The translations under genes and the position numbers were made by a program. This document shows, piece by piece, positions 12,553 through 47,614 of a stretch of 64,000 nucleotides of DNA. Positions within the stretch are counted from its first letter, which is position 1. Each line of letters starts with the position of its first letter. Source of the stretch: Arthrobacter hankyongi (GTDB lineage: Bacteria > Actinomycetota > Actinomycetes > Actinomycetales > Micrococcaceae); contig NZ_JAKLTQ010000002.1 of NCBI RefSeq assembly GCF_022012395.1, positions 124,001 through 188,000 on the forward strand, given 5' to 3'. The notes under the pieces are model-generated. The model was not told the origin of the DNA, did no database searches, and saw only the letters and a program-made list of their open reading frames with translations.

Positions 12553-12667
12553 TGCGGGCGCCGGCAGTAGCAACAGCCGCCCGGCGGGTAACCGTAATGT
12601 TGATGGTACGACGGCGGTGCGCCGCCCGCGAAAGTGGGCCGCGCACCGCCGTCGTTATCCCGGAGGG

Positions 12668-31003: not shown

Positions 31004-31027
31004 AAAGCCTGAGCCGCGGAGTTCCCC

Positions 31028-31936: not shown

Positions 31937-31987
31937 CCCGGCCGGCCACTATCGATTCTTCACCTACCACCCAACAAGCGAGGATCA

Positions 31988-33928
31988 ATGAGTGTAAACA
32001 TCGACCTGGCGGCGCGCCAGGAGATCGACATCGAGCGGCTGGATGGTGCCTTGGCCGTCGCGAACCTGCCGTCCCTGGTCATGGTGCTGTTCCAGTTGAC
32101 CGGTGACGAGCGCTGGATCAGGGACCCGTACCGCCCTACGAAGCCGAAGGGCATGAGCGACCACGATTCCGGCGGATTCAGTGACGAAGTGCAGCAGCAG
32201 ATCCGTGCGGCGGTCCGCGAAGCGATCCTCGAGTGGGCGCAGGGAGCGCCGATCGCTGTTCCCACGCCGACGGGCAGCTTGCTGCGCGAACTCATGACGA
32301 TCTGCGTCAACGAAGAGGTGCCCGACAGCTACGAGCCGATGATCGCCGAGCAGATGGGCTTCGCGGACCCGATCCGGATTCCCGATGTGTCGAATGGCGG
32401 CACGACGCCGGTCGACTTCTCCGTGGTCATCATCGGTGCGGGCATTTCCGGCCTGCTCGCTTCCCTGCGCCTGCGCGAGGCCGGTGTGCCGAACGTCGTG
32501 TTCGAGCGTGAATCCGACATCGGCGGTGTGTGGCGCACCAACCGGTACCCGGGGGCCGGCGTCGACACCCCGAGCCACCTCTACTCGTTCTCCTTCTACC
32601 GCCGCAACTGGTCGCGCTACTACGGCAAGCGCGACGAGGTCATCGAATATCTCGAGGATTTCACGGACCATTTCAACCTGCGCCCGGGGATCCGCTTCAA
32701 CACCCGCGTCATCAGCGCGGTGTACGACGAGGCGTCGCAGAAATGGACGGTGACCGTCGAGAATCCCGATGGGTCGGTCGAATCCGTGGTGGCCAACGCG
32801 GTGATCAGCGCGGTGGGCATTTTCAGCGAGCCCAATGTCCCCGACATCCCCGGTGCGGAATCATTCAATGGTCCGGTGTTCCACTCGTCCTACTGGCCGG
32901 CAGACCTGGACGTCGAGGGCAAGCGGGTCGCGGTAATCGGCTCCGGGGCAAGCGCGATGCAGATCGTTCCGGCGATCGTCGGCAAGCCGTCGCAGATCAC
33001 GATCTTCCAGCGGACACCGCAGTGGGCAGCGCCTGCCAACAAGTACTTCGAGCATGTCGACGACGATGTGCGCTGGCTGATGGACACCGTGCCGTTCTAC
33101 CAGGACTGGTACAGGTTCCGGCTCGCGTGGATGTTCAACGACAAGGTCCAGCCGACCCTGTTCCGCGACCCGGAGTGGGAACACCCGGACCGGTCGCTTA
33201 ACGCGGCGAACGACCGCCACCGCGCCTCGCTGACCAAGTACATCCTAGGCAAGCTCGAAGGGCGGGAGGACCTGCAGGCCATCGCCGTCCCCGACTACCC
33301 GCCGTACGGCAAGCGCATGCTCATCGACAACGGCTGGTTCGACGCCATCAAGCGTCCCGACGTGGAGATCATCCCCAGTTCGGCGGCGCGGATCACGGAG
33401 ACCGGTGTCGTTTCTGCTTCCGGCGAGGAACGCGAGGCCGACATCATCGTGCTGTCCACCGGATTCCACAGCGGCCGCTTCCTGCTGCCGCTCGAGGTCA
33501 GGGGCAGGGCAGGGGAGTCGCTGCGCGAAACTTGGGAGGACGACAACGCCCGGGCATTCCAGGGAATCGCGGCCCCATCCTTCCCCAACCTCTTCTTCCT
33601 CTACGGCCCCAACACGAACGGCTCCGGCGGCAGCTTCCTCTACCTCGGCGAGTCCCAGGTCGGCCATGTCGTGTCGCTGATTACCTCGATGATCTCGCAG
33701 GGCAAGGCGGCGGTCGAGCCCCGGCGCGACCGCTACGAGGAGTACAACGCCAGGATCGATGACCTGCTCGGCCAGATGGTGTGGTCGCACCAAGGCGTGG
33801 ACACGTACTACCGCAATTCGAAGGGACGGGTAGTGACGAACATGCCGTGGTCGGTGGTCGAGTACTGGAGCCTCATGCGGGAACCGGACCTGGACAACTT
33901 CGTATTTGAAGACAAGAAGGGTGCGTAG
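31988..33928 (+). CDS. Baeyer-Villiger monooxygenase, 4-hydroxyacetophenone monooxygenase type
   Basis: The 646-residue flavoprotein has an N-terminal extension of about 140 residues like HAPMO, then the FAD loop VVIIGAGISGLLAS (about 147-160), GGVWRTNRYPGAGVD, the Baeyer-Villiger fingerprint FNGPVFHSSYWP (293-304) and the NADPH loop VIGSGASAMQ. These enzymes insert one oxygen beside a ketone carbonyl, giving an ester or lactone. Aryl ketones are known substrates of HapE-type enzymes, but the specificity here is unknown. The gene lies between a hydrolase and an SDR gene (2 bp spacing), which would serve the ester product and an alcohol precursor. Confidence 0.9.
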   Translation: MSVNIDLAARQEIDIERLDGALAVANLPSLVMVLFQLTGDERWIRDPYRPTKPKGMSDHDSGGFSDEVQQQIRAAVREAILEWAQGAPIAVPTPTGSLLRELMTICVNEEVPDSYEPMIAEQMGFADPIRIPDVSNGGTTPVDFSVVIIGAGISGLLASLRLREAGVPNVVFERESDIGGVWRTNRYPGAGVDTPSHLYSFSFYRRNWSRYYGKRDEVIEYLEDFTDHFNLRPGIRFNTRVISAVYDEASQKWTVTVENPDGSVESVVANAVISAVGIFSEPNVPDIPGAESFNGPVFHSSYWPADLDVEGKRVAVIGSGASAMQIVPAIVGKPSQITIFQRTPQWAAPANKYFEHVDDDVRWLMDTVPFYQDWYRFRLAWMFNDKVQPTLFRDPEWEHPDRSLNAANDRHRASLTKYILGKLEGREDLQAIAVPDYPPYGKRMLIDNGWFDAIKRPDVEIIPSSAARITETGVVSASGEEREADIIVLSTGFHSGRFLLPLEVRGRAGESLRETWEDDNARAFQGIAAPSFPNLFFLYGPNTNGSGGSFLYLGESQVGHVVSLITSMISQGKAAVEPRRDRYEEYNARIDDLLGQMVWSHQGVDTYYRNSKGRVVTNMPWSVVEYWSLMREPDLDNFVFEDKKGA

Positions 33929-33930
33929 CC

Positions 33931-34707
33931 ATGACACAGCAGCGACGGTTCGAGGGTAAGACTGTCCTCGTCACCGGATCCGCCGGGCCCGGCCTCGGCT
34001 TCTCCACGGTCAAACTCTTTGCCGAGGAAGGGGCGCACGTGGCCATCTCCGACCGCAGCGCACGCCGCGTCAAGGAGGCCGCGGAGCGAATCCGGACGGA
34101 GGTCGATGGGCTCGCCGGCGTCACGGAAATCACCCTCGACGTGACTGACGAGGAAAGCGTCCGGGAGGGTGTGGCGGGGATCGTGGCCGAAACGGGTTCG
34201 ATCGACGTGCTGGTCAACAATGCCGCCTTCGCCGAGCAGGCCGCCCTGGTGGACATGAGTCTCGAGAGTTGGCAGCGCGTGCTGAATGTGGGCCTCACCG
34301 GTCCGTTCCTCATGATGCGGGCGTGCCTGCCGCACATGTATGCCCAGGGAAGCGGTTCGGTAGTCAACGTATCCTCGATTGAGGCGTGGGCGGCTGCCGA
34401 CCCCCACATCGGATCCTACGTCGCGGCGAAGTCGGGACTGCTCGGCCTGACGCGGGTCGGTGCCGCCGAGGCGGGACCCCATGGTGTACGCGTCAATGCG
34501 GTTGCGCCGGGCCTGATGGTGAACAAGGCCGTCGAGGAACTCTTCGATAAGGACGCGCTTGCCGACATCGTGGCGCGCACCCCGCTGGGGCGTGCCGGCG
34601 GGCCGGACGAAGTCGCCCGAACCATTCTCTATCTCGCCAGCGAGGATGCCGCCTTCGTGACCGGAGACGTGCTCACGGTCGCCGGGGGCCTCTACTACCA
34701 CGCGTAG
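33931..34707 (+). CDS. SDR-family oxidoreductase
   Basis: The 258-residue classical short-chain dehydrogenase has a slightly divergent cofactor loop VTGSAGPGLGFSTV, NNAAF in place of NNAG, and the catalytic Ser, Tyr and Lys in VNVSSIEAW and GSYVAAKSG. AISDRS after strand 2 suggests NAD. It probably oxidises a secondary alcohol to the ketone used by the adjacent monooxygenase. Two bases separate it from the monooxygenase gene, so it is the third gene of the hydrolase-BVMO-SDR operon. An AT-rich promoter region follows before the next unit. Confidence 0.9.
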   Translation: MTQQRRFEGKTVLVTGSAGPGLGFSTVKLFAEEGAHVAISDRSARRVKEAAERIRTEVDGLAGVTEITLDVTDEESVREGVAGIVAETGSIDVLVNNAAFAEQAALVDMSLESWQRVLNVGLTGPFLMMRACLPHMYAQGSGSVVNVSSIEAWAAADPHIGSYVAAKSGLLGLTRVGAAEAGPHGVRVNAVAPGLMVNKAVEELFDKDALADIVARTPLGRAGGPDEVARTILYLASEDAAFVTGDVLTVAGGLYYHA

Positions 34708-34835
34708 GCGTTCCGGGCCGGAGTACCCGCCGTCCGAAAATACTCTATTGAAAAGTATTTTAGTCGAAGATAATCTAGCTCCACCTCCCAATGGGGAAGG
34801 CAGGAAGCCCCTGCAACGATGCAAGGAGATCAACC

Positions 34836-36008
34836 GTGACACAGTCGCAAATCCTCGAAGAAACCGCGCCCGGTACCGATCCGGATTCCGGGACGGACTT
34901 CGTCGAACGCGCCCGGGCGCTGGCCCCGCTCATCGAGAGCGAAGCGGCAGCCGCCGAAGCGCAGGGCAAAATCACCGAAAAGGTTGTTGAGGCCCTGAAG
35001 GACTCGGGCCTGATGTGGATGCTCGTGCCGACGGAATACGGCGGCGGCCTCAACACGGCCCAGGCCACCGAGGTCATCGAGGAAGTATCGCGGGCGGACG
35101 GGTCGACGGGCTGGGTGCTCATGGCCAATTCGTTCGGCAACGCCGTGATTTCAGGCTTCCTGCCGGAGGGAGGATCGCGGGACCTGTATGCCGGCCCGGA
35201 CAAGGCGATCATCGCGGGAATGGGCGCCCCGGTCGGTAAGGCGGTTGCCACCGACGGTGGATACATCGTCCAAGGCAAGTACCGTTTTGGCAGCGGCAGC
35301 CACCATGCGACCCATATCGGCTTTGGACTCACCCTCGTCAACGAGCAGGGCGAGGCTCTCGATTACCTGCAGGCCGTGGTTCCCCGCGAGCAGGTGGTGT
35401 TCAAGGGCGGCTGGGATGTCACCGGCTTCGTTGCCACCGGCAGCCAGGACTTCGAGATCCCGGAGCAGTTCGTTGACGCGAAGTACGTGTTCAGCCTCCA
35501 GGGCGCGGCGGTGCAAAAGCATGCCCCATTTGCAACGGGTGTCGTGATCGGCATCCTGGGGCACGCCGGCGTCGCGCTCGGCCTGACCGCTCGGGCGCTC
35601 CAGGAAGTTGCGGGATCGAGCCGTCAGCGCTTCCGCGGCGGCTACCCGACGCCGGTCGACCAGTACCCGGTCTTCCTCTCGGAATTCGCCAAGATCGAGG
35701 CCGAGTACCAGGCGGCGCGGGCCTACACGCTTGAGACGTTCGCCAAGATCGACGAATACGCCGTGCGCGAGGGTGCACCCTCCGAGGAGCTGGTGGCCAG
35801 GGCCCGCCAGGCCACCACCTGGACTCACGACGTCCTTGAGCGCGTCATTTCCAAGGCCCGCCTCTGGTCCGGCAGCGACGCGTTCCGGAACCCCAGCGGC
35901 ATCGGCCGTGCGGTGCGCGACGCCGGCGTTGTGACACAGCACATCTTCATCGACCCGATCACGTATGTCGAAGCGGCTCCGGCGCTGCTTCGGTCGTGGC
36001 AGCGCTAA
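34836..36008 (+). CDS. Acyl-CoA-dehydrogenase-fold flavin-dependent monooxygenase (group D-like)
   Basis: The 390-residue protein has the acyl-CoA dehydrogenase fold but reads like reduced-flavin-dependent hydroxylases (HsaA, HpaB C2 or DszC type): WMLVPTEYGGGLN, SRADGSTGWVLMAN, YIVQGKYRFGSGSHHATH, and a C-terminal helical region ending DAGVVTQHIFIDPITYVEA. The C-terminal catalytic segment of true dehydrogenases is missing. It would need reduced flavin from a separate reductase, available at 26600-27187. The GTG at 34836 follows AAGGAG. It heads an operon with a hydrolase and a MerB-like gene. A dehydrogenase role is less likely but not excluded. Confidence 0.75.
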   Translation: MTQSQILEETAPGTDPDSGTDFVERARALAPLIESEAAAAEAQGKITEKVVEALKDSGLMWMLVPTEYGGGLNTAQATEVIEEVSRADGSTGWVLMANSFGNAVISGFLPEGGSRDLYAGPDKAIIAGMGAPVGKAVATDGGYIVQGKYRFGSGSHHATHIGFGLTLVNEQGEALDYLQAVVPREQVVFKGGWDVTGFVATGSQDFEIPEQFVDAKYVFSLQGAAVQKHAPFATGVVIGILGHAGVALGLTARALQEVAGSSRQRFRGGYPTPVDQYPVFLSEFAKIEAEYQAARAYTLETFAKIDEYAVREGAPSEELVARARQATTWTHDVLERVISKARLWSGSDAFRNPSGIGRAVRDAGVVTQHIFIDPITYVEAAPALLRSWQR

Positions 36009-36031
36009 CCAATACCGAGAGGAACCTTGAC

Positions 36032-36949
36032 ATGACTGAGACACGGACCGAAGCGGCGACCGCGCAGAAGCTCGGCGACCTCTACCGGTATTGGGCCCGG
36101 CGCCAGACGCCGGGGGACGATCCCGGGATGGACCTGCTGCGCGACCTCTACGACGGGTGGGGGCAGTTTGCCACCGAAGCCGAGGACGTGAGCTTCAAGA
36201 CGGTGGACGAGGACGGCATCCGGGGAATCTGGGCCAAGCCCGGACCGCACCGGCCGGGAGCAATCCTCTACCTGCACGGGGGTGGCTACATCGGCGGCAG
36301 CGCGAACGGGCACCGCAAGCTGGCTGCGCATATCGCCAAGGCGGCCGGGCTGCCGGTGTTCGTGCTGGACTACCGGCTGGCCCCCGAGCACCCCTACCCG
36401 GCCGCCCTGGAGGACTCGCTGGCCGCCTACGAGTGGATCCTGGCCAAGGGCGCCCCGGCCGAACGGGTGGCGATCGTGGGCGATTCGGCCGGCGGGGCCC
36501 TGGCCACCGCCGTGGCCCTGCACCGACGGGACGCGGGCCTGCCCCTGCCCGGGGCGATTGCCACCATGTCCCCGTTCTATGACATTGCTGCCACCGGACG
36601 GACGTTCGAGACCAATGCCGGCAAGGATGCGATCGCGGACCGGTCCGGCATCGACGGGCTGCATGCCCTGATCCTGGGCGAAGGAGTCACGGTCGACAAC
36701 CCGTACCTCAATGCGCTGAAGTCCGACCCTGCGGGCCTGCCCCCGGTACACATCGCCTTCGGCGGCGACGAGACGCTGCTGTCGGGCGGTGAGGACTTCG
36801 CCGAGCTTGCCCGGGGCAAGGGTGTCGAGGTTGAGCTCGAGGTCTACGAGGGACAGCAGCACGTCTTCCAGGTCCTGGCCGGAGCCGACCCCGACGCCGA
36901 CGACTCGATCGCCAAGATCGGCACCTTTATCAAGCGCCACATCCAGTAA
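36032..36949 (+). CDS. Alpha/beta hydrolase, HSL-type esterase
   Basis: The 305-residue esterase has the oxyanion motif LYLHGGGYIGGS (HGGG about 82-85), LDYRLAPEHPYPAA, nucleophile elbow VGDSAGGALATA (Ser 152), the acid in FGGDETLL and the His in EGQQHVFQ. It is a clear paralogue of the hydrolase at 31028. The ATG at 36032 has GAGAGGAA upstream. It lies between the group D-like monooxygenase (23 bp) and the MerB-like gene (27 bp) in one operon, suggesting hydrolysis of an oxygenated intermediate. Confidence 0.88.
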   Translation: MTETRTEAATAQKLGDLYRYWARRQTPGDDPGMDLLRDLYDGWGQFATEAEDVSFKTVDEDGIRGIWAKPGPHRPGAILYLHGGGYIGGSANGHRKLAAHIAKAAGLPVFVLDYRLAPEHPYPAALEDSLAAYEWILAKGAPAERVAIVGDSAGGALATAVALHRRDAGLPLPGAIATMSPFYDIAATGRTFETNAGKDAIADRSGIDGLHALILGEGVTVDNPYLNALKSDPAGLPPVHIAFGGDETLLSGGEDFAELARGKGVEVELEVYEGQQHVFQVLAGADPDADDSIAKIGTFIKRHIQ

Positions 36950-36976
36950 GTTCCTCCAGCCGAAGGCGGACAATCC

Positions 36977-37759
36977 ATGCACACGTTCCATTGCGCCTAC
37001 GGCGAGTATCCGCCGCAGGGCGCCGAAGAGTTCGAATACACCGAGACCACGAAGCGGGTGCGCCGTTTCTTCGAGGACTTCATCCCGGAGCAGGGCCGCG
37101 CGCCCGGCATCCCGGAGATCATGAAAGCCCTCGACCTCGATCAGCAGGAAACCTGGGACGCCCTTTACCAGCTGCACCTCGGCGTCCAGATCATGTTCGT
37201 CCCGGGTACCGAGAATATTGTGAAGATGCCACCGGTCAGCTTCGTCCCCACGCGGCACCGGGCCAAGCTCGAGGACGGACGGGAGTTCTGGGCCGGTTGC
37301 GCCGGCGAAGCCAGCGCGTTCCACTTCCGGTTCCCGGGCCAGGTGACCACGATCGAATCCATGTGTCCCGACTGCTGGGAGCCCATCGTGACGAAGTGGA
37401 AGGATGGCGAACTGCTGTCGGTGGAACCGGAGACCGCCCTGATCCACATCGGGCGTCACCCCGGCGAGTGGGGCGACCAGATGATGCTGACCTGCGAGAA
37501 CATCAATTTCTTCCGGTCGCCGGAGCATGTGAAAGTGTGGGAGGAAAAGATGCCGGAGAAGCGCGGCATCACGCTCCCGGTCGACAAGGCCGTCGAATGG
37601 GTCGAAGGCGAGGCGCGCGTCCGCTACTGGGACTATGACCGTCCTCCGGGGCTGGTGGGGGCCAACAGCCTCGCCGGTTCAACGGTCGAGCATTTCAGGG
37701 CCCTCGGAGCCGATGTGACCTATTGGGAGGAACTGCTGGCCGCGCAGTCCGCGCAGTAG
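36977..37759 (+). CDS. MerB-like (alkylmercury lyase family) protein 1
   Basis: The 260-residue protein reads like the organomercurial lyase fold: an N-terminal helical winged-helix-like part (residues 24-70), then strands and a core with FWAGCAGE (Cys108, Glu111), SMCPDCWE (Cys130, Cys133) and LTCENINFF (Cys173). In MerB the catalytic set is Cys96, Asp99 and Cys159 with structural Cys117; the spacing here (108, 111, 130, 173) closely parallels it, with Glu in place of Asp. It is the last gene of the flavin monooxygenase-hydrolase operon. No merA, merR or transport genes are near, so mercury detoxification is doubtful. Its true reaction is unknown; a C-C or C-heteroatom lyase or metal-binding role are options. 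Confidence 0.75.
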   Translation: MHTFHCAYGEYPPQGAEEFEYTETTKRVRRFFEDFIPEQGRAPGIPEIMKALDLDQQETWDALYQLHLGVQIMFVPGTENIVKMPPVSFVPTRHRAKLEDGREFWAGCAGEASAFHFRFPGQVTTIESMCPDCWEPIVTKWKDGELLSVEPETALIHIGRHPGEWGDQMMLTCENINFFRSPEHVKVWEEKMPEKRGITLPVDKAVEWVEGEARVRYWDYDRPPGLVGANSLAGSTVEHFRALGADVTYWEELLAAQSAQ

Positions 37760-37776
37760 CGCGAGCCCTGGCCCAT

Positions 37777-37818
37777 GGGTGGCCGGCCATGGCCCTGCAT
37801 GGTGCGGCCACCCTTTTT
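37777..37818 (+). terminator. Rho-independent terminator after MerB-like gene 1
   Basis: GGGTGGCCG (37777-37785) pairs with CGGCCACCC (37805-37813), followed directly by TTTTT. It ends the monooxygenase-hydrolase-MerB-like operon. Confidence 0.85.
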
Positions 37819-37936
37819 ATGCCCGATAAATAGTTTTGACATAAATCATTGTGTATAAGACTAATTGGGGTTAGCGTATTCATCGCACACCGTCCTGCAG
37901 TTCAGAGCCGCAGGCGGTCCAGCAGAGGAGAAATCA
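37819..37936 (+). promoter_or_regulatory. AT-rich promoter region of the ABC transporter operon
   Basis: After the terminator there is an AT-rich stretch with TTGACA at 37836-37841 and TATAAG at 37854-37859. The gap between them (12 bp) is too short for a standard pair, so only one may be a true element. GAGGAG lies before the 37937 start. Confidence 0.4.
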
Positions 37937-39130
37937 ATGAAGATCACTCGCCTACTTGCCGCAGGCGCTATGTCCGCCATTGCGGCCCTGGCTCTCGCGG
38001 CCTGTTCGAGCGGGAGCGCCGGATCCGATGCCGCGGAAGCCAGCGATCCCTTCCGGGTCGTGGCGATCCTGCCCATGACCGGGCCGCTCTCGAAGCAGTC
38101 GGAAGTCCAGGTCAATGGCCTCAAGGCATCTGCCAAGATCGTGAACGCGGACGGCGGCATTGGCGGCCGCGACGTCGAGGTCAAGGTCCTCGATTCAAAG
38201 CTCGATCCCACCGAAGCCGTGACGCTCCTCCAAGAGGAGATCAACTCAGACACCCCGCCCGACTACGTGTGGGCCGGGGCCACGAGCAACGAAGCCTTGG
38301 CGATGCTGCCGGCACTCTCAAGCGCGGGAATCCTCTCCGGCAGCACAGCGGCCGATATCAAGATCAACAATCCGGAACTTTACCCCTATCACTTCGGGAT
38401 GCAGTCGGCGAACAACCAGAACTACCAGGCGTTTGTCGACTACGCGAAGAACAAGGGCTTCAAGAAGGTCGGCTTCATTTCCGCCAATGATGCCTTGGGC
38501 ACCTACAACCATTCAGCCATCACCGAAATGCTGGCCAACACCGGAATCGAGCTCGTCACGCAGTCGTACGACACCACCGCGACCGATCTGACCGCGCCGA
38601 TGGACGCGCTCAAGGCGGCCGACCCCGACGTGCTCTTCGCATCGTCCTACGGATCCGGCGTCGGCTACATCTTCGACGCCCGCCAGAAGCTGGACTGGGA
38701 CGTGCCCGTGGTCGGGGATAACGCCGTGGGTGGTTCGAACCCTGCCGCGATCGTGGCACCGGAGGCGCTGAAAGGTGTTCAGCTCCTGAGCCCTCTGGTT
38801 TCCGCAACGGCCCACAAGGACGAATGGCTCCCCGACACCCAGAAGATGATCGACGCGATCAGCGCCGAGGGGGACATCAGCCAGATCGTGACTCAGGCAT
38901 CCCTGCCGTACGACGCCCTCCAGCTGCTGGCACTGGCGGCCAAGCAGGCAAGTGCAACAGACGCGGACGCGCTCAAGGGGGCGCTGGAAGGTCTGAAGAC
39001 CCCCGACCACGTGACCTGGACCTCCTACCCGGCCTACGGCTTCTCTCCGGAGAACCACTTCCCGAAGATCGAATCCGGGTACATCGTCTTCACCGGGGCC
39101 ACCAAACTCGTCAACGGCCAGTTCCAGTAG
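37937..39130 (+). CDS. ABC transporter substrate-binding lipoprotein, LivK/branched-chain amino acid type
   Basis: The 397-residue protein has a lipoprotein signal peptide (basic start, hydrophobic core, lipobox LAAC with Cys23), followed by a type I periplasmic-binding domain: VVAILPMTGPLSKQSEV, VNADGGIGGRDVEVKVLDSK, VGFISANDALGTYNHSA. This family binds branched-chain amino acids, amides, urea and also aromatic or short organic acids in catabolic clusters. The setting, between MerB-like operons, suggests import of the island's substrate. GAGGAGAAATCA precedes the ATG at 37937. Permease and ATPase genes follow after a hairpin. Confidence 0.9.
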   Translation: MKITRLLAAGAMSAIAALALAACSSGSAGSDAAEASDPFRVVAILPMTGPLSKQSEVQVNGLKASAKIVNADGGIGGRDVEVKVLDSKLDPTEAVTLLQEEINSDTPPDYVWAGATSNEALAMLPALSSAGILSGSTAADIKINNPELYPYHFGMQSANNQNYQAFVDYAKNKGFKKVGFISANDALGTYNHSAITEMLANTGIELVTQSYDTTATDLTAPMDALKAADPDVLFASSYGSGVGYIFDARQKLDWDVPVVGDNAVGGSNPAAIVAPEALKGVQLLSPLVSATAHKDEWLPDTQKMIDAISAEGDISQIVTQASLPYDALQLLALAAKQASATDADALKGALEGLKTPDHVTWTSYPAYGFSPENHFPKIESGYIVFTGATKLVNGQFQ

Positions 39131-39138
39131 CCGATCCG

Positions 39139-39175
39139 GGTGGCCGCGGACCTGGCAACCCAGGACGCGGCCACC
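39139..39175 (+). other. Intra-operon hairpin after binding-protein gene
   Basis: GGTGGCCGCG (39139-39148) pairs with CGCGGCCACC (39166-39175), and an inner CCTGG/CCAGG pair extends the stem. No T-tract follows. Such hairpins commonly raise binding-protein mRNA relative to the downstream permease part; that role is inferred. Confidence 0.6.
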
Positions 39176-39212
39176 TCCACCCACCGGCCTCGCAGATTAA
39201 GGACCTTCGGAC

Positions 39213-40076
39213 ATGATGACAACGCTGTGGGCGGGTCTGACCATGGGAGCGATCTACGCGATCGTGGCGATCGGCTACAACATCACGCTGACGCTGACCG
39301 GCGTCATCAATTTCGCGAACGCGCAGTTCGTCATGATCGGCGCCTTCGTGGCCTATTGGGGGCTGACCCAGAACGACCTGCCGCTGCCCCTGGTACTGCT
39401 CGTGGCGGTCATCCTCTCCGCGCTGGTCGGAATCCTCACCGAACTGATCGCGATCCGCCCCCTCCGCAACCGCGGCGGCCATACCGAACTCGTCACCACC
39501 CTTGGCGTGTCGACGGTGATCGCCGGGCTCGCACTCGTGGTCTTCGGCCCCGACCCCGTTCCGGTGAACGTTGTGCCCACGGAAACGTTCAACGTGCTGG
39601 GCGGCCAGGTGCGCCTCAATGAGCTGCTGCTCATTCTCGTTGCGGCAGTCGCGGCCCTTGCCGTCCATTGGTGGATGCACCGCTCGAAGCTTGGCCTCGC
39701 CGGCCTCGCCCGTGCGGAGGACCCGGAGGCGGCCTCGATCCGCGGCATCAATGTGAAGGGTCTGGCCATCCTGGGGCTGGTCCTGGCGGGTGCCTTCGGC
39801 GGCCTGATCGGCCCGCTCGTCGCGCAGAAGACGTTCGCCGTCGCCACGCTCGGCCTTGTCCTGGCCCTCAAGGGGTTCGTGGCAATGGCCGTTGGCGGAG
39901 TCGGCAGCATCCTCGGCTCCCTCGTCGGCGGCCTCATCGTGGGCCTCGTGGAAGCCCTCGCCGCCCGCAGTATCGGAAACGACTTTGGCGAGATCGCCGT
40001 GGTCGTCGTGCTCCTCGCAGTACTCCTGCTGCGGCCCACCGGTGTCGTTGGAAGAGGGCAGGTGCGTCTTGTTTGA
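39213..40076 (+). CDS. ABC transporter permease, LivH type
   Basis: The 287-residue inner-membrane permease has about eight hydrophobic segments and the LivH start MGAIYAIVAIGYNITLTLTG followed by NFANAQFVMIGAFVAY. It carries the cytoplasmic coupling region GLAGLARAEDPEAASIRGIN and ends with LLAVLLLRPTG. It pairs with the LivM-like half encoded next to form the channel. Two ATGs in a row (39213, 39216) are possible starts. The next gene overlaps its end by eight bases. Confidence 0.92.
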   Translation: MMTTLWAGLTMGAIYAIVAIGYNITLTLTGVINFANAQFVMIGAFVAYWGLTQNDLPLPLVLLVAVILSALVGILTELIAIRPLRNRGGHTELVTTLGVSTVIAGLALVVFGPDPVPVNVVPTETFNVLGGQVRLNELLLILVAAVAALAVHWWMHRSKLGLAGLARAEDPEAASIRGINVKGLAILGLVLAGAFGGLIGPLVAQKTFAVATLGLVLALKGFVAMAVGGVGSILGSLVGGLIVGLVEALAARSIGNDFGEIAVVVVLLAVLLLRPTGVVGRGQVRLV

Positions 40077-41931
40077 TTCAATTGCGCGGATGATCGGCAG
40101 GCCGCTGCTCGCGGTGAACCGGCGCTGGAACGTCCTCGGGCCGGTCCTGGCCCTGCTGCTTGCGGCCTTCGTCGCGGCACTTCCCTGGCTCGGCCTGGAT
40201 ATCGGCTGGCAGCGCCAGATCATTCTCATTGCCGTGCTGGCGCTTGTTGTCAGCGGCCTCAACCTCAGCTTCGGCTATGCCGGAGAACTCGCCCTCGGGC
40301 AGGTCTTCATGTATGCGGCCGGCGCTTACACCGCGGGCTGGCTCGGCAAACAGGGCGTCACGAACATCGTCGTGGTGCTCGTCGTGGCAATCGTCGCGGC
40401 CTTGCTGCTCGGCGTGATCACCGGTGCGGCAGGTCTTCGACTCGGCGGCTGGATGCTGGCGCTCACCTCGCTGTTCTTCATCACCCTCATTCCACGTGTC
40501 GTCAACCTGATGGGGGACGAGCTGGGCGGTTTCGCCGGCATGGCGGGCATTAGCCGGCCGACCCTGTTCGGCGAGCCCATGAAGAACACGGCGTTCTACC
40601 TGCTGGTCATCATCTGCAGCGCGCTGTGGATCGCCGTGATGCGCAACCTGGTGAAGTCCCGCGAGGGCACCGCGTTCCTGGTGCTCAAGGAAAGCCCAGT
40701 ACTCGCCCGAACGCTCGGCGTGAGCGTCTACCGGACGAAGCTGCGCGCCTATGCGCTGGGCGGTGTGCCCGCGGGCATCGCCGGCGTGCTCTATGCATAT
40801 CTCGACGGCTACGTCTCCCCGGGTGCCTTCACCTTCGAACTCGGCCTGATCGTGCTGGCCGCAGGCATCCTCGGCGGCGTCCTCTCGATCTACGGCGCGA
40901 TCCTGGGGGCCGCGGTCCTGCAGCTCGGCCCCGCACGCCTGTCCGTTTTCGACACCTACGCCGAGGTGGCCTACGGTGTGCTCCTGATCGTCGGCGGCGT
41001 GCTGCTGAGCATGGGCATAGCCGGCATCGGGCACCGGTTCATGAACCGGCTGCTGGCGGCGGCCCGGCACGACGCCGATGCGGCTCCCGAAGCCGTTGCG
41101 AAGCCCGAATTCGCGGCACTCAACGGCAAACAGCTGGAGGTCTCCGGCGTCGTCGTGCGGTTCGGCGGCTTCACGGCCCTGGACGGCGTGTCGATGCAGG
41201 CCAAGCCTGGCGAGATCACGGCGCTCATCGGCCCGAACGGGTCGGGCAAGACGACGCTGCTCAACGCCATCTCCGGGCTGATCGTACCCAAGGACGGTGA
41301 AGTCTCTCTCGACGGCACAGTGTTCAACGGCGATCCCAAACTGGCGGCCGGGAGCGGCATCGCACGCACCTTCCAGACCCCGCTCATTCCCTCGACGCTC
41401 ACCGTGCACGAGGTGGCCGCGTCCGGCCGTCTGCTGCGCGGCAAGACCACCTTCGTCGAGACGGTGCTCAGGCTGCCCCGCTACCGCCGCGCCCGGATAG
41501 CCGACCGCATCGCTGCCGGGGACGCGCTCGCAGCGGTGGGGATCTCGTCCCTCGCGGACGCCCAGGCGAGTACGCTGCCCCTGGGGACCCGGCGCCTTCT
41601 GGAGTTCGCCCGGGCGATTGCCAACGAACCCTCGGTCCTGTTGCTGGACGAGGTGGCCTCCGGACTGGACGAGAACGAGCTCAAGGAACTCGCGGCGCTC
41701 ATCCGCGGGGCACGGGATGCCGGCGCCACGGTGGTCCTGGTCGAGCACAACTTTGAACTGGTGCGGCAAATCTCGGACCACGTCGTCGTCCTCGCCGAGG
41801 GCAAGATCATCGCCCAGGGCGACGCTGGCACCATTGCCAGCGACGAGCGGGTGGTCAACCTCTACCTCGGAGCAGACATCATGCATGCCCACTCACGCGA
41901 CGACGTCGCGGAAGGAGCCGTGGCCCCATGA
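40069..41931 (+). CDS. Fused ABC permease (LivM type) and ATPase (LivG type)
   Basis: The 620-residue fusion has a LivM-like membrane half (about residues 20-330; LNLSFGYAGELALGQVFMYA, then coupling region VLKESPVLARTLGVSVYRTK) joined to a LivG-like ATPase from about residue 350: FGGFTALDGVSMQAKPGEI, Walker A GPNGSGKTT near 388, Walker B SVLLLDE, switch His in LVEHN. The signature segment is degenerate (TLPLGTRRLLEFARAIA). The most likely start is TTG 40069, overlapping livH by eight bases after AGAGGGCAGG; ATG 40090 is an alternative. It works with the separate LivF ATPase encoded next. Confidence 0.85.
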   Translation: MFDSIARMIGRPLLAVNRRWNVLGPVLALLLAAFVAALPWLGLDIGWQRQIILIAVLALVVSGLNLSFGYAGELALGQVFMYAAGAYTAGWLGKQGVTNIVVVLVVAIVAALLLGVITGAAGLRLGGWMLALTSLFFITLIPRVVNLMGDELGGFAGMAGISRPTLFGEPMKNTAFYLLVIICSALWIAVMRNLVKSREGTAFLVLKESPVLARTLGVSVYRTKLRAYALGGVPAGIAGVLYAYLDGYVSPGAFTFELGLIVLAAGILGGVLSIYGAILGAAVLQLGPARLSVFDTYAEVAYGVLLIVGGVLLSMGIAGIGHRFMNRLLAAARHDADAAPEAVAKPEFAALNGKQLEVSGVVVRFGGFTALDGVSMQAKPGEITALIGPNGSGKTTLLNAISGLIVPKDGEVSLDGTVFNGDPKLAAGSGIARTFQTPLIPSTLTVHEVAASGRLLRGKTTFVETVLRLPRYRRARIADRIAAGDALAAVGISSLADAQASTLPLGTRRLLEFARAIANEPSVLLLDEVASGLDENELKELAALIRGARDAGATVVLVEHNFELVRQISDHVVVLAEGKIIAQGDAGTIASDERVVNLYLGADIMHAHSRDDVAEGAVAP

Positions 41932-42662
41932 CCGCCCAGCATCCTCTCCTGGAAGTCTCGTCCATCGCGGGCGGCTACGGCGACATCACCGTCGTGCGCG
42001 ACGTGTCCTTCACCGCCTCGGCGGGCCGGATCACCGCGATCCTTGGCCGCAACGGGGCCGGTAAGACTACCTCCCTGCGCATGGTGAGCGGACTCAATCC
42101 CATCTCGGCCGGATCGATCCGCCTCGGGGGCAAGGACGTGGGCAGGCTCGCACCGCATGCCCGCACCGCCAAAGGCATCGCCTACGTGCAGGAAGGCAAG
42201 CGCATCTTCAGGCAGCGTTCCGTCCAGGAAAACCTGATGCTGGGTTCGTATCCGCTGCGTATCCCGCGCAGCCAGGTGATGAAGAAGGTCGAAGAGGCGT
42301 TCGACCGCTTCCCGGCCCTCGCGAAGAAGCGCGACGTCGCGGCGGGACTGCTCAGCGGAGGCCAGCAACAGATGCTCGCCATCGCCCAGGCCCTTGCCCC
42401 GGGGCCGAAGGTGCTTATGCTCGACGAACCCACCACGGGCCTGGCCCCGGCGATCGTGGGGGAACTCTTCGACCTCATCACGCGGCTTCGTGACGAGGGC
42501 CTGGCGGTCGTGCTGGTCGAGCAGGCCGTCGACTTCTGCCTCAGCATTGCCGACGAAGCGGTCGTGCTGAATCTTGGCCAAGTGGTCTATCGGGGGGACG
42601 CCAAGAGCGCGTCGACCCGCGGTGCCGTCGAAGCCACCTACATGGGGGTAGAGCTCGCCTAG
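41928..42662 (+). CDS. ABC transporter ATPase, LivF type
   Basis: The 244-residue ATPase has Walker A GRNGAGKTT, Q-loop YVQEGKRIF, signature LLSGGQQQMLAIAQALA, Walker B KVLMLDEPT and switch segment VVLVEQAVDF. The YVQEGKRIF motif is typical of LivF. It overlaps the permease-ATPase fusion gene by ATGA and is the last transporter gene. It energises import of the binding-protein ligand. The signature is intact here but degenerate in the fused partner, so the dimer may have one main hydrolytic site. Confidence 0.93.
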   Translation: MTAQHPLLEVSSIAGGYGDITVVRDVSFTASAGRITAILGRNGAGKTTSLRMVSGLNPISAGSIRLGGKDVGRLAPHARTAKGIAYVQEGKRIFRQRSVQENLMLGSYPLRIPRSQVMKKVEEAFDRFPALAKKRDVAAGLLSGGQQQMLAIAQALAPGPKVLMLDEPTTGLAPAIVGELFDLITRLRDEGLAVVLVEQAVDFCLSIADEAVVLNLGQVVYRGDAKSASTRGAVEATYMGVELA

Positions 42663-42738
42663 AGCCAGCCGCTCCGGGTATGGCCCGTTAGCTGTCTATT
42701 TTTCTCAAAACTCCAACAAGGAATCGGAAGGAAACACG

Positions 42739-43500
42739 ATGCATAAGTTCCACACCCCCTACGGCGTCCTCCCGCCGCTGGCGACCGAGGTCTTCGACCT
42801 GACCGACACCACCAAGCGTGTCCGGAGGTTCTACGAGGACTTCATCCCCGACAATGGCCGTCCGCCGACATTCCTGGAGGCGATGGACGGGCTCCGCATC
42901 AGCTACAACGATCTTTGGGACTCCCTTGACCAGCTGTACCGCGGCGTGCAGGTCATGTTCCTCGAGGGCACGGAGAGCCTCATCAAGATGCCTCCGTTCG
43001 CGTTCTACCCCACACGCCACCGCGTGACCTTGGAGGACGGCCGGGCGTTCTGGTCTGGATGTGCCGGCGAATCGAGCGCCTTCAGCGTGCAGTTCCCGGG
43101 ACTGGTGACCACCGTCGAGTCGATCTGCCCCGACTGCGGCGAGAAGATCACCTCCACCTGGAAGGACGGTGCCCTGCTGAGCGTCGATCCCGAGGGGACG
43201 CTGATCAACATCGGAACGTACCCCGACAATTGGGGCAAGAACATGACGATGGTCTGCGAGAGCATCAATTTCTTCAAGAACCGCGACCACATCGAGAACT
43301 GGGTGGCCCAGGTGCCCGAGCAGGCCGGCGCCATCCTGCCGATCGAGAAGGCCCAGGCCTGGGTGGCCGGGGTGGCCAAGGTCCGCTACTTTGACTACGA
43401 CCGCGCCCCCGATGTCGTCGGCTCCTTGTCCGCAGCGGGAACAACGATCGACGCCTTCCGCGCCGCCGGGGCCGACGTCACCGCCTGGGAAAACCGCTAA
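42739..43500 (+). CDS. MerB-like (alkylmercury lyase family) protein 2
   Basis: The 253-residue protein aligns without gaps to MerB-like protein 1 over nearly its full length, with more than half of the positions identical. It keeps all the candidate residues at the same numbers: FWSGCAGE (Cys108, Glu111), SICPDCGE (Cys130, Cys133) and MVCESINFF (Cys173). Blocks such as TTKRVRRF, EDFIP, FPTRHR-like FYPTRHR and LEDGR are conserved between the two. The gene follows the transporter operon by 76 bp and precedes a zinc alcohol dehydrogenase. GGAAGGAAAC precedes the ATG. Two divergent copies both retaining the site argue for a selected, enzymatic or metal-binding function, not yet known. Confidence 0.75.
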   Translation: MHKFHTPYGVLPPLATEVFDLTDTTKRVRRFYEDFIPDNGRPPTFLEAMDGLRISYNDLWDSLDQLYRGVQVMFLEGTESLIKMPPFAFYPTRHRVTLEDGRAFWSGCAGESSAFSVQFPGLVTTVESICPDCGEKITSTWKDGALLSVDPEGTLINIGTYPDNWGKNMTMVCESINFFKNRDHIENWVAQVPEQAGAILPIEKAQAWVAGVAKVRYFDYDRAPDVVGSLSAAGTTIDAFRAAGADVTAWENR

Positions 43501-43514
43501 CCACCAGTACCGTG

Positions 43515-43555
43515 TCCGTTGCGGGGGCCGTCCGCCAACCGGCCCCCGCAACGGA
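43515..43555 (+). other. Strong hairpin between MerB-like 2 and alcohol dehydrogenase genes
   Basis: A perfect 16-bp stem (43515-43530 with 43540-43555; core GCGGGGGCCG) with a 9-nt loop starts 15 nt after the MerB-like stop. No T-tract follows. It could be a partial terminator, an mRNA 3' stabiliser, or limit expression of the downstream genes. Confidence 0.65.
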
Positions 43556-43584
43556 CCCCGGCTTCAAAAGGAACAGGACCTGCC

Positions 43585-44679
43585 ATGACTCTGAAAAACA
43601 GAAGCGCCGTCTTCACTGCCCCGGGGCGGCCGGTGGAATTCCACGAATCATCGCTGCCGGCGCCTCCGGGCGGCGGCATGATCGTGAAAGTGGGATTGGC
43701 CGGCATCTGCGGGACGGACGCGCATCGTCTTGGCGGCGACCTGCCCGCCCCCGCGGCGCCGATCACCTTCGGCCACGAGGGTGTCGGCACCGTCGAGGAA
43801 CTCGGGGCGGGAACCGTGCGCGACTGGGCCGGGGTCGAACTCAGCGTCGGCGACAGCGTCTATTGGTTTCCGCCGTCGGGCTGCGGCCGCTGCTACCACT
43901 GTTCCGTCCAGCTGGACCCGGCCATTTGCGCCAACGCCACTTGGCCACCGGAAGCGGGCAAGCCCAACGCCGCGGCGTTCCAGGACTACGCCACCCTGGA
44001 CAGCAAGGTCGGCGTCTACCGCATACCGGAGGGAACTCCGCTGGAAGCGGTCATCGCCTTCGGCTGCGCCATGCCGACCGCTCTCGGCGGCAACATGCGC
44101 GCCGGCATGATCGAGCCTGGCCAGACCGTGGTGGTCCAGGGCGCGGGGCCGGTCGGCCTCGCCTCGACGATGCTGGCCGGCCTCAGCCAGGCACGCCAGG
44201 TCATCACCATCGGCGGGCCGGACAACCGGCTCAAGGCGGCCGAAACCCTGGGGGCCACGACGACGCTCTCGATCGAGACGACGACGCCGGAGGAACGCCG
44301 CGAGACGATCCTCGAGCTCACCGGTGGACACGGTGCCGACGTGGTCTTCGAAGCCGCCGGGCACCTGTCGGCCTTTGCGGAGGCCATTCCGCTGCTCAAC
44401 CACAACGGGCGTTATGTGGTCCAAGGACTGTATTCGGGCAGCGGCACCGTGCCGGTCGACCCGCATCTGCTCAACAACCGCTCACTGAGCATCATCGGCA
44501 GCCTGGGCTTCAAGCCCAACAGCATCCAGCGCACCGTCGAGCTGGCCGCACGGTACCACGATCGGTTTGGACTGGCAGATCTGGTCACCGGCAAATATCC
44601 GCTGACCGAGCTCGAACGCGCCATCGACAGCATGCGCGCCGGCGACACGATCAAGAACGTCATCGACCCATCGATGTGA
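43585..44679 (+). CDS. Zinc-dependent alcohol dehydrogenase (MDR family)
   Basis: The 364-residue enzyme has the catalytic zinc ligands Cys42 (GICGTD) and His64/Glu65 (TFGHEGVG), a structural zinc lobe with four Cys (SGCGRCYHCS plus the Cys in DPAIC), and the nucleotide loop VVVQGAGPVGLASTM. It oxidises an alcohol or reduces a carbonyl with NAD(P). The ATG at 43585 lies after AGGAACAGG. It is followed by an acyl-CoA ligase and two thioesterases, consistent with a step from alcohol toward acid or with a 3-hydroxy intermediate. Substrate unknown. Confidence 0.9.
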   Translation: MTLKNRSAVFTAPGRPVEFHESSLPAPPGGGMIVKVGLAGICGTDAHRLGGDLPAPAAPITFGHEGVGTVEELGAGTVRDWAGVELSVGDSVYWFPPSGCGRCYHCSVQLDPAICANATWPPEAGKPNAAAFQDYATLDSKVGVYRIPEGTPLEAVIAFGCAMPTALGGNMRAGMIEPGQTVVVQGAGPVGLASTMLAGLSQARQVITIGGPDNRLKAAETLGATTTLSIETTTPEERRETILELTGGHGADVVFEAAGHLSAFAEAIPLLNHNGRYVVQGLYSGSGTVPVDPHLLNNRSLSIIGSLGFKPNSIQRTVELAARYHDRFGLADLVTGKYPLTELERAIDSMRAGDTIKNVIDPSM

Positions 44680-44734
44680 CCGGGACCGCATACTGAAGCA
44701 AGGCCGGCCCACCAAGCATAAGGAGCACACAGAC

Positions 44735-46300
44735 ATGACCACCTTCATCGAGTTCATCGAGCGCCATGCGCAGGAACGCCCCTTGGACAAGGCGTTGAGC
44801 GCGCCCGACGGCGGTGTGTCGATTACTTGGGAACAGTTCAACCGCCGGACCGACGAAATCGCCGGAGCGCTCGTCAAGGAGGGTGTCCGGAAGGGCGACC
44901 GCATCGGGATACTCGACCACAACACCATCGACGCGGTGGAGGCCTCGGTCGGCGCGGTCAAGGCCGGCGCCATCGCCGTACCGCTCAACTGGCGGCTTGC
45001 GGGCCCGGAGCTCGGTGCGATCCTTGCCTCGTTCGGGCCCCGCATGGTGTTCTCTTCCGCCGGCCTCCGCCCCCTGCTCGACGAGGCGAACGCCGGGGTC
45101 GGGGCCCAGGTCATCGAGTTGGGCACTGGCGGCTACGCGGCATGGCGCAACGCCGGCGCCGGGGTAGCCATCGAAAAGCCGTCGAACGACCCGGCGCTTC
45201 CGGTGTGCATCATGTACACCTCGGGCAGCACCGGCGCGCCCAAGGGCGTGGTTTTCCCGAACTCGGCATTCTCCACGGTGCTGCCCGGCGTGGTGCAGGA
45301 CGAGGGCATCGCGGCCGACTCGGTCCTGCTCCAGGTGCTCCCGCTCTTCCACATCGGTGGCTTCGCCTGGCTCGCCTCCGCGTTCATTGCCGGCAGCGAG
45401 TCGGTACTCCTGCCGGCGGCCGCGCCCGATTCCATCCTGCAGGCGGTGGAAACCTACGGAGTGACGCACCTTTGCGTCGTCTCCACGCTCCTCGGCCTCC
45501 TTATCCAGGAGTACCGCCGCAATCCCACGGACACTACCACGCTGAGCATGATCCAGTGCGGCGGCAGCCCCATCCCGGATGCCCACCTGCGCGAGGCAGC
45601 CAGGATCTTCGGGGCGTCGTTCGTCACCCTCTACGGGCTGAGCGAGGCCGGAGGGCTCGTGGCGAACCAGATCCTTACCCCGGCGATGATCGACGCCGGC
45701 CTGGACGAGCAGCGCCTGCTGTCCGCCGGCACCGCCGTCGGGGGAGTCGAGGTCGCGATCCGGGACCTGGACACCGGGGAAGACCTCCCGGCCAACGCCG
45801 ACGGCGAGATCGTCACCCGAACCACCGGCGGCATGAGCGGGTATTGGAACGAGCCGGCCAAGACCGCAGAGGTGCTTTCGGCCGATGGATGGCTCCGCAC
45901 CGGCGACGTCGGCAGCCTGGACGAGGACGGATTCTTGTTCATTAAGAGCCGGGTCAAGGACATGATCATCTCCGGCGGCGAGAACATCTATCCGGCTGAG
46001 ATCGAGAACGTGCTGGTGGCGCATCCCGGCATCTCGGCCGCGGCCGTCGTGGGAGTTCCGCATCCGAAGTGGGGCGAAAGCCCGGTGGCCTTCATCACCC
46101 TGCACCATGGTGCCGTGGTGACGGACGAGGAAGCGATCGCCTGGTGCCGCGAGCGCCTTGCTTCCTACAAGCGGCCGCAGGCGGTGTTCGTTGCAGACGA
46201 CCTGCCACGCCTCGGCGGCGGAAAGGTCGACCGCCCCGCCCTGCGCGCACAGGCCGGATCGACCTTCGCCGTGTCCGCCGCGGCGGATGCGGTCCGGTAG
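44735..46300 (+). CDS. AMP-forming acyl-CoA ligase (CaiC-like class)
   Basis: The 521-residue ligase has the motif MYTSGSTGAPKGVVFPN, A5 TLYGLSEAGG, GWLRTGDVGSLDEDGFLFIK, the hinge RVKDMIISGGENIYPAEIE and catalytic Lys in LGGGKVDRPALR. It belongs to the class of crotonobetaine/carnitine and medium-chain fatty acid CoA ligases. Its own promoter is not obvious; it follows the alcohol dehydrogenase by 55 bp and abuts a PaaI-type thioesterase gene with no gap. It activates an acid intermediate of the island. Confidence 0.9.
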   Translation: MTTFIEFIERHAQERPLDKALSAPDGGVSITWEQFNRRTDEIAGALVKEGVRKGDRIGILDHNTIDAVEASVGAVKAGAIAVPLNWRLAGPELGAILASFGPRMVFSSAGLRPLLDEANAGVGAQVIELGTGGYAAWRNAGAGVAIEKPSNDPALPVCIMYTSGSTGAPKGVVFPNSAFSTVLPGVVQDEGIAADSVLLQVLPLFHIGGFAWLASAFIAGSESVLLPAAAPDSILQAVETYGVTHLCVVSTLLGLLIQEYRRNPTDTTTLSMIQCGGSPIPDAHLREAARIFGASFVTLYGLSEAGGLVANQILTPAMIDAGLDEQRLLSAGTAVGGVEVAIRDLDTGEDLPANADGEIVTRTTGGMSGYWNEPAKTAEVLSADGWLRTGDVGSLDEDGFLFIKSRVKDMIISGGENIYPAEIENVLVAHPGISAAAVVGVPHPKWGESPVAFITLHHGAVVTDEEAIAWCRERLASYKRPQAVFVADDLPRLGGGKVDRPALRAQAGSTFAVSAAADAVR

Positions 46301-46951
46301 GTGGGAACCGAAGCAGTGGGCACGCTGGCATACGACGCACCTGCGGCGAAGGTGGACCGGCGTCGGCTCATCGAACAGCTCGGTGATGCGGTGCGCGGGC
46401 TCGTCGCGGCGACGTGCGCCGCCGAGGCTCCGCCCGAGGAACTCGAACGGGCCATCGCAGGCACCCGACAGCTGGCCGAGGGCCTGCGCGGGTTCGCCAG
46501 GCCGCTGGGGACGGCCTCTTCGAGTGAGGATCCCTTGCTTCCGCACCTCTACCCGGCTGGCCACGGGGCAGGCAACCCTGTGGCCCCGCCCGTGCACGTC
46601 GAAGCGACGGAGGAGGGGGTGCGTTCGCGGATCACGCTGGGCCGGCAGTACGAGGGGCCGCGCGGCCGTACGCACGGCGGCATCAGTGCGCTGCTGCTGG
46701 ACGAAGTGCTCGCCTATGCCTCCACGAGCGCCGGCCGCGGCGGGTTCACCGCCTACTTGAACACGTCCTACCACCAGGCGGTGCCCATCCAGGTGCCGCT
46801 TGAGATACGGGCCCGGATCGATGCCGAGGACGGCCGCAAGACCACCGTGAAGGGGTTCATTGCACTTGAGAGTGACCCGGAGGTTCCGCTGGTGAGCGCA
46901 ACGGCACTTTTCGTGATCCCGCGGGCGGACTACGAGGGGAACCAGAAATGA
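46301..46951 (+). CDS. PaaI-family hotdog thioesterase
   Basis: The 216-residue protein has about 90 extra N-terminal residues and a C-terminal hotdog domain with the PaaI motif RTHGGISALLLDEVLAY followed by TAYLNTSYHQAVPIQVPLE. PaaI-type enzymes hydrolyse aryl- or acyl-CoAs and rescue trapped CoA. The GTG at 46301 directly follows the ligase stop codon with no good ribosome site, suggesting translational coupling; a later start is possible. It overlaps the next thioesterase gene by ATGA. Confidence 0.82.
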   Translation: MGTEAVGTLAYDAPAAKVDRRRLIEQLGDAVRGLVAATCAAEAPPEELERAIAGTRQLAEGLRGFARPLGTASSSEDPLLPHLYPAGHGAGNPVAPPVHVEATEEGVRSRITLGRQYEGPRGRTHGGISALLLDEVLAYASTSAGRGGFTAYLNTSYHQAVPIQVPLEIRARIDAEDGRKTTVKGFIALESDPEVPLVSATALFVIPRADYEGNQK

Positions 46952-47445
46952 TCCAGCCAAGCTACGGGCAGGTGATGCAGCTGCCGGCACTCTTCACCGG
47001 AACGGTCCCCCGGGACCCGGACGAGCCGCGCATGCATATGACCGTCCAGGACCACTTCGCCCAAGGCTTCGCGGCCGCGCTCGAGCTGTGCCGACGGATC
47101 GGACTCGACGAGGAATTCGCCGCGGTGCGTCGCTCGTGTCCGATCACTGCGGCGAACCACTCCACCTACCTCAGTGAGCTGTTCGAGGGGGAGAGGTTCA
47201 GCGTGCACGGGCGGCTGCTGGCCCGTTCGGAGAAGGTGCTGCACACGATGGCCTTCCTCGTTGATCAGGAACGGCAGGCTGTGGCCAGCACGCTCGAGGC
47301 GGTGTTCCTGCACTTCGACCTCTCTGCCCGCCGCGCGGCGCCGCTGCCCGCCGACGTCGCTATGCGGGCCGACGACCTCCTCGCGGCCGACGGCATGCTG
47401 GACTGGGACGCCCCCGTCTGCGGCGTCCTGGGTATTCGTTCCTAG
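46948..47445 (+). CDS. Thioesterase-family hotdog protein
   Basis: The 165-residue protein looks like single-domain hotdog thioesterases found with carnitine and hydroxybenzoyl-CoA metabolism: NHSTYLSELFEGERFSVHGR, then SEKVLHTMAFLVDQERQAVA and LEAVFLHFDLSARRAAPLP. It starts in ATGA inside the previous gene and ends the alcohol dehydrogenase-ligase-thioesterase unit. A rho-independent hairpin follows 12 nt after the stop. The family is assigned by pattern, and the catalytic residue is not certain. Confidence 0.75.
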   Translation: MIQPSYGQVMQLPALFTGTVPRDPDEPRMHMTVQDHFAQGFAAALELCRRIGLDEEFAAVRRSCPITAANHSTYLSELFEGERFSVHGRLLARSEKVLHTMAFLVDQERQAVASTLEAVFLHFDLSARRAAPLPADVAMRADDLLAADGMLDWDAPVCGVLGIRS

Positions 47446-47457
47446 CGCTCCGCAAAG

Positions 47458-47510
47458 AGACCCGGTTACGGTGACGGCCCAGGCCGCCGCCGTAACCGGG
47501 TCTGTTTCTT
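47458..47510 (+). terminator. Terminator after thioesterase genes
   Basis: A 14-bp stem (47458-47471 with 47490-47503; arm AGACCCGGTTACGG) with an 18-nt loop is followed by GTTTCTT. It ends the plus-strand operon. Confidence 0.85.
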
Positions 47511-47614
47511 ATTCGGGCCCGCCCCGGGAATCGGCCCGGGCGGGGCAGCTGGTGTGTGTCTGGACGGAGCCGAGATGCAGTCCCGCTGGATCCAGCCTGC
47601 TTGACGGAACCTGC

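Follow-up and report, generated by a model that had tools for sequence, protein, structure and literature searches.

Two divergent MerB-family proteins bracket a Liv-type importer in a gene run of Arthrobacter hankyongi

A 64,000-nucleotide stretch of the Arthrobacter hankyongi genome (contig NZ_JAKLTQ010000002.1, positions 124,001 to 188,000; hereafter the window) encodes two MerB-like proteins in a run of genes for a Liv-type ATP-binding cassette (ABC) importer, oxygenases, esterases and acyl-CoA enzymes. The best-established enzymatic job of the MerB fold is the cleavage of carbon-mercury bonds, and the locus raises the question of what two such proteins might do in these surroundings. The pair are divergent MerB-family proteins, intact but with an altered site and in an unusual neighbourhood; judging from the sequences, their likeliest activity is the cleavage of a bond that joins carbon to a soft atom.

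Both open reading frames (ORFs) are present on the forward strand where a preliminary description of this DNA had located them (Table 1), and its gapless alignment was recovered, with 143 of 252 positions identical (57%, 0 gaps, BLASTP E 6e-116) and Cys108, Glu111, Cys130, Cys133 and Cys173 in common. The second protein has these four cysteines only; the first has Cys6 in addition. A hidden Markov model search with the Pfam MerB family (PF03243), proposed there as a check, matched both proteins (cut-off 27 bits; E about 1e-24), and theirs are the only two PF03243 genes in the genome. The paralogues differ with a non-synonymous divergence (dN) of 0.36 and a synonymous divergence (dS) of 0.83 (NG86), and the low dN relative to dS suggests that the two copies, both intact, are diverging under constraint.

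The spacing of the conserved residues had been likened to that of MerB with Glu replacing Asp, and this is borne out by phmmer and hhalign alignments, in which Cys108, Glu111, Cys130 and Cys173 correspond to Cys96, Asp99, Cys117 and Cys159 of MerB (numbering and signature residues from passages of PMC8261052, which also describe MerB-like variants that lack Cys117). When the pair was aligned with eight canonical actinobacterial MerB cores using hhalign (probability 97.8%), Cys108, Glu111 and Cys173 fell on Cys, Asp and Cys. By sequence, MerB2 (5c17; phmmer E 1e-7) is the nearest protein of solved structure; Cys130 lies on one of its Cys, and it has a Ser at the position of Glu111; a five-row profile matched the same structure with E 2.8e-12. 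An AlphaFold model built from a two-row alignment had a mean predicted local distance difference test (pLDDT) score of 57.7 and a predicted TM-score (pTM) of 0.57, too poor for judging distances. Of 375 Foldseek hits with E ≤ 10, 11 reached E ≤ 0.001, and all 11 are MerB, as anticipated from the proposed structure prediction; their query TM-scores are low (0.36-0.41) and their root-mean-square deviations are 10.7-13.6. The predicted fold is recognised as that of MerB, from a weak model.

Relatives were selected by similarity to the MerB-like domain itself, which biases the set toward conserved positions. The alignment has 58 rows, the window pair and 56 of 62 loci (L004-L065); the window's own second copy (L008) and near-copies judged by equal scores (L017, L022, L023, L032 and L033) were left out, as were matches for which no locus had been fetched, and the relatives in G998 (L144) and G810 (L159) are outside these rows. 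At position 108 there are 55 Cys and three selenocysteines (Sec, an in-frame TGA), at position 111 there are 53 Asp and five Glu, and at position 173 there are 39 Cys and 19 Sec; the Cys173 of L049 is doubtful as the frame looks broken there. The CxxC motif is often lost (Cys130 is retained in 31/58 rows, Cys133 in 27/58), and two rows (L058 and L060) lack it and keep Cys108, Asp111 and Sec173. The invariant Cys/Sec, Asp/Glu and Cys/Sec positions support the presence of a working thiol-thiol-carboxylate site.

The in-frame TGA codons of the relatives are probably Sec codons. The 19 rows with Sec173 come from 18 genomes, 16 of which match a selenocysteine tRNA (tRNA-Sec) with 57.9 bits or more (exceptions G478 and G674), compared with 8/16 of the other genomes tested, the window's own included; the threshold was set after the scores were known and weak hits occurred in all 14 control genomes, such that these counts support the assignment and do not prove it. 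The window's genome probably makes selenoproteins because a tRNA-Sec is present (G000:C19:35815-35905, 77.3 bits); the window pair nonetheless uses Cys. MerB-like selenoproteins are already catalogued in passages of PMC9312934 and PMC13188914, and terms for them have 0 occurrences in the main text of PMC2398784, the paper that a review cites for them.

A maximum-likelihood tree was constructed from 57 rows with columns 108, 111, 120 and 173 removed (L049, where the frame looks broken after the CxxC, was excluded). The window pair lies inside a branch of 25 rows (support 97/97) that consists of 16 rows with a single Sec, at 173, four Cys rows that carry a WW motif and five Glu rows; the other 32 rows, including ordinary MerB, lie outside it. 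Many members of the branch have, by eye, a common C-terminal extension ending in an aromatic-rich motif. Only 5/58 rows have Glu111, and these five alone also have a Pro at column 120: the window pair and L042, L043 and L051 (genomes G633, G642 and G741). In the latter three an in-frame TGA stands at each of the two active-site Cys positions (108 and 173), and their MerB-like domains run on in frame into a region that we take to be AAA+ ATPase-like from its P-loop motif. All five Glu-type domains match the model of SaoL, described below, with E ≤ 0.001 and four of them match MerB models. The five rows are not united on the tree (two changes), their union is not rejected (approximately unbiased (AU) test, p 0.429), and they may be one group or convergent. 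By eye, the contexts of L042, L043 and L051 have no neighbours in common. In the order of G633, 7/16 genomes have a MerB-like hit, with no further Glu-type member among them.

Curated models place the pair far from canonical MerB. Against the two NCBIfam MerB models (cut-offs 200 and 193 bits) the proteins score 38.9/43.4 and 38.6/35.8 bits, and while the equivalents of Cys96, Cys159 and Cys117 are present, Glu111 replaces Asp99 in both; the name canonical MerB was rejected on these two grounds. The best NCBIfam model for both proteins is SaoL (NF040728, 'MerB-like organometallic lyase'; 63.7 and 45.2 bits), a protein with a selenocysteine in a CU motif according to passages of PMC13188914. 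The name SaoL was also rejected, as the equivalog cut-off of 140 bits was missed and neither window gene has an in-frame TGA, leaving the pair without Sec. Of the adjacent importer, the binding protein and the LivM-G fusion were scanned, and no Sao transporter model matched either of them among the rows listed (the best 25 of 191 for the fusion).

The claim that the window holds no merA, merR, merP or merT stands within the ORFs scanned. No MerR, MerT or HMA family was found in 52 Pfam-scanned window ORF translations (51 distinct ORFs; livH, the livM-G fusion and livF lay outside the scan), and the absence of merR, merP and merT applies to these ORFs, no genome-wide search for them having been made. 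The MerA model gave 34 hits in the whole genome, none above its cut-off.

Both MerB-like genes belong to a single run of 15 co-directional genes (31028-47445, gaps of -13 to 177 bp), in the order given in Table 1, and bracket the Liv-type importer exactly. The neighbours named in the preliminary description do adjoin the two copies; the separate settings that it gave them were not found, as the one run holds both. The gene set may serve to break down a ketone or ester of cyclic or branched structure.

Table 1 Features of the gene run containing the two MerB-like genes, with coordinates in the window.
Feature	Coordinates	Strand	Evidence
Esterase, hormone-sensitive-lipase family	31028-31936	+	PF07859
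Type I Baeyer-Villiger monooxygenase (BVMO), 646 aa	31988-33928	+	PDB matches: steroid, phenylacetone and cyclohexanone monooxygenases; FNGPVFHSSYW fingerprint
Short-chain dehydrogenase	33931-34707	+	PF13561
HsaA/HpaH-like flavin monooxygenase, acyl-CoA dehydrogenase fold	34791-36008	+	HsaA model 116.9 bits, below cut-off 450; PDB matches Rv3094c, 3-HSA hydroxylase
Esterase, hormone-sensitive-lipase family	35996-36949	+	PF07859; EstD11 E 4e-62
MerB-like protein 1 (P0001), 260 aa	36977-37759	+	PF03243 83.6 bits; alignments
Residue codons of P0001	C108 37298-37300; E111 37307-37309; C130 37364-37366; C133 37373-37375; C173 37493-37495		
Liv-type substrate-binding protein	37937-39130	+	PF13458 E 2e-41
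Importer core	39213-42662 (LivH 39213-40076; LivM-G fusion 40114-41931; LivF 41928-42662)	+	
MerB-like protein 2 (P0002), 253 aa	42739-43500	+	PF03243 85.9 bits; alignments
Residue codons of P0002	C108 43060-43062; E111 43069-43071; C130 43126-43128; C133 43135-43137; C173 43255-43257		
Zinc-type alcohol dehydrogenase	43585-44679	+	PF00107/PF08240
AMP-forming acyl-CoA ligase	44735-46300	+	PF00501
Two thioesterase-fold proteins	46301-46951, 46948-47445	+	PF03061, PF13279

The start of the binding protein was placed at the ATG of a lipoprotein-like signal, and its best relatives among 197 class genomes are 34% and 27% identical. The names LivH, LivM and LivF are presumed from type and order. The LivM permease and LivG ATPase appear to be joined in one 605-aa protein, the LivG model matching its C-terminal half, and L141 and L142 likewise give one such long match, where LivH, LivM-G and LivF align in the same order (tblastn). 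Upstream of the run are genes for a flavin reductase, an HMG-CoA-lyase-like protein, hydratases, ligases and a GntR regulator. The flavin reductase (26600-27187), on the opposite strand and some 8 kb away from the flavin monooxygenase, is a possible partner for it. A scan for promoters and terminators was uninformative (0 promoter-like sites, 1.5 in shuffles; 12 terminator-like sites, 8.8 in shuffles), and Rfam had no match in 30000-48000. Elsewhere in the window there are two IS110-family transposase ORFs (58185-59264, reverse strand; 59584-60933, forward strand), followed by a zinc-dehydrogenase ORF of 107 aa (61362-61685) that matches the second half of PF00107 only and may be a gene remnant. 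Two adjoining major-facilitator ORFs of 437 and 175 aa (11211-13195, reverse strand) perhaps also include a remnant, the short one corresponding only to the first part of the major facilitator superfamily (MFS) model.

The site of the pair appears to be MerB-like, with two soft ligands and a proton donor, because the thiol and acid positions are constant, Sec occurs at exactly those thiols and the CxxC is lost in L058 and L060; such a site would make the proteins lyases that break the link of carbon to a soft atom. From family membership, the conserved positions of the site, the tree branch and the gene order, which were all established directly, we infer that the proteins are catalysts, what kind of bond they cleave, that the Liv system imports the substrate and that the island uses the product. 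The explanation that we favour, a tentative one, is that the pair are divergent MerB-family enzymes working like MerB, probably on a compound other than an organomercurial. The thiolates of Cys108 and Cys173 would bind the soft atom, such as a metal or a metalloid, of an organic compound entering via the adjacent Liv-type importer, Glu111 would pass a proton to the carbon, and the freed organic part could go to the surrounding ketone, ester and acyl-CoA enzymes. This explanation draws on the PF03243 and fold matches, the branch apart from ordinary MerB, the copies bracketing the importer and SaoL as the best NCBIfam model. A more specific proposal, to which we give a low probability, is a catabolic MerB fold, in which an imported organo-metalloid or organo-heteroatom food compound would be cleaved by two Cys/Glu/Cys lyases and its skeleton passed to Baeyer-Villiger oxidation, ester hydrolysis and CoA activation.

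If the island and the MerB-like genes were linked in general, the association would be expected to recur, which the preliminary description had proposed to check; no island matching that of the window was found, and the available evidence leans against a general link. Two pattern scans of genome contigs gave 44 and 117 pattern matches, none of them a relative of the window pair, with short, near-exact peptide patterns that divergent orthologues can escape and in records from which those nearest to the window's genome are possibly absent. No orthologue was found in overlapping draws of 59, 394, 396, 10, 347 and 197 genomes, in which 5, 20, 30, 3, 2 and 6 genomes, respectively, had any hit (E 1e-5 for the draw of 347 and 1e-3 for the others; the window's own genome is counted each time). 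Among plasmids 17 records matched, all below 60% identity and none covering 80% of the query, and a near-identity search of 27000-50000 gave 10 plasmid records with short pieces only. Of two scans of viral contigs, the first had no relative and the second one 21-residue match, taken as chance. The contexts of 20 distant relatives had no common island; matches to island genes were short-chain dehydrogenases and ABC ATPases, and the only other family present in at least three contexts was the short-chain dehydrogenase (3/20).

Several further points weigh against the favoured explanation. Among 197 family genomes a BVMO match with E ≤ 1e-100 occurs in 24 and a MerB-family match in six (the two draws being assumed identical), and the overlap is the window's genome only. 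The best relative of the BVMO (G866) is 48% identical, and the best relatives of the importer (G073 and G133) have LivH, LivM-G and LivF of 42-51% identity in the same order; the proposed neighbourhood survey found no MerB-like match (more than 90 residues, E 1e-8) in the fetched stretches around any of these three. The island link is seen in one genome only. The selection of relatives by similarity to this domain favours conserved positions, the model (mean pLDDT 57.7) is too weak for active-site geometry, and no activity was found in the open-licence literature for any member of the 25-row branch. The earlier suggestion of a new lyase or reaction is upheld in part: family, fold, the conserved Cys/acid/Cys, the lack of a MerA over the cut-off and the separate branch agree with it, whereas the reaction, and with it the step from a conserved site to new chemistry in ketone catabolism, is a hypothesis from one genome.

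A metal-free lyase of the ketone pathway would also fit the Glu in place of Asp and the position among genes for a BVMO, a flavin monooxygenase, esterases and a CoA ligase; through thiolate attack and protonation, its Cys/Cys/Glu site would break a carbon-carbon or carbon-sulfur bond of an intermediate. We consider this unlikely, as two soft ligands exchangeable with Sec would suit a soft atom better and similar BVMO and importer loci have no such gene. It is likewise doubtful that the pair are not enzymes but metal binders or sensors, with a winged-helix N-terminus and a four-Cys MerB core holding zinc or another metal for regulation or delivery. MerB itself has an N-terminal domain of the winged-helix kind, Sec at zinc ligands would be unusual, and L058 and L060 lose the CxxC yet keep Cys108, Asp111 and Sec173; these points are set against the four conserved Cys, a helical N-terminus with a weak LexA DNA-binding match (E 0.076) and the zinc-finger ancestry of the MerB fold, for which passages of PMC4999995 argue. 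Plain detoxification of organomercurials by a divergent MerB with accidental catabolic neighbours, to which PF03243 membership, the retained Cys pair and the natural Ser99 variants and genomes with MerB but no MerA in passages of PMC8261052 could point, is the least likely alternative because the curated MerB scores are missed widely (36-43 bits against 193 and 200) and the genome has no MerA over the cut-off, and it has against it also the position of the pair outside the ordinary MerB branch and the lack of MerR, MerT and HMA families in the scanned window ORFs.

That the pair retains the MerB active site with a slight change hints that the fold may also serve for non-mercury compounds. In the open-licence literature no paper was found on alkylmercury lyase with Baeyer-Villiger degradation, or with a monooxygenase gene cluster in Actinobacteria. 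A divergent, intact pair with an altered acid residue, beside an importer and ketone-degrading enzymes, is a concrete gene set for asking whether MerB chemistry is wider, and, with Sec at both active-site thiols in some relatives, positions 108, 111 and 173 lend themselves to direct tests of their roles.

Four known systems resemble the pair. Organomercurial lyase MerB (PF03243; NF033555, PRK13239; PDB 3f0o, 5c17) has the family, the fold match and the equivalents of Cys96, Cys117 and Cys159 in common with it; unlike MerB, the window proteins have Glu for Asp99, a CxxC, extra N- and C-terminal length, a genome without a MerA over the cut-off and scores far under the curated cut-offs. SaoL is their top NCBIfam model and the pair is, too, in a region with an ABC importer, but it does not reach the SaoL cut-off, has no Sec and lies beside a Liv-type importer with a binding protein matching no Sao model. 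On the tree the pair is found among Sec-bearing MerB-like proteins, from which it differs in having Cys for Sec despite the genomic tRNA-Sec and to which it is about 30% identical at best. The double-Sec, ATPase-linked proteins (L042, L043 and L051) are the sole other rows with Glu111 and the Pro at column 120; they are 24-27% identical to the window pair and differ from it in Sec108, Sec173 and the ATPase-like region.

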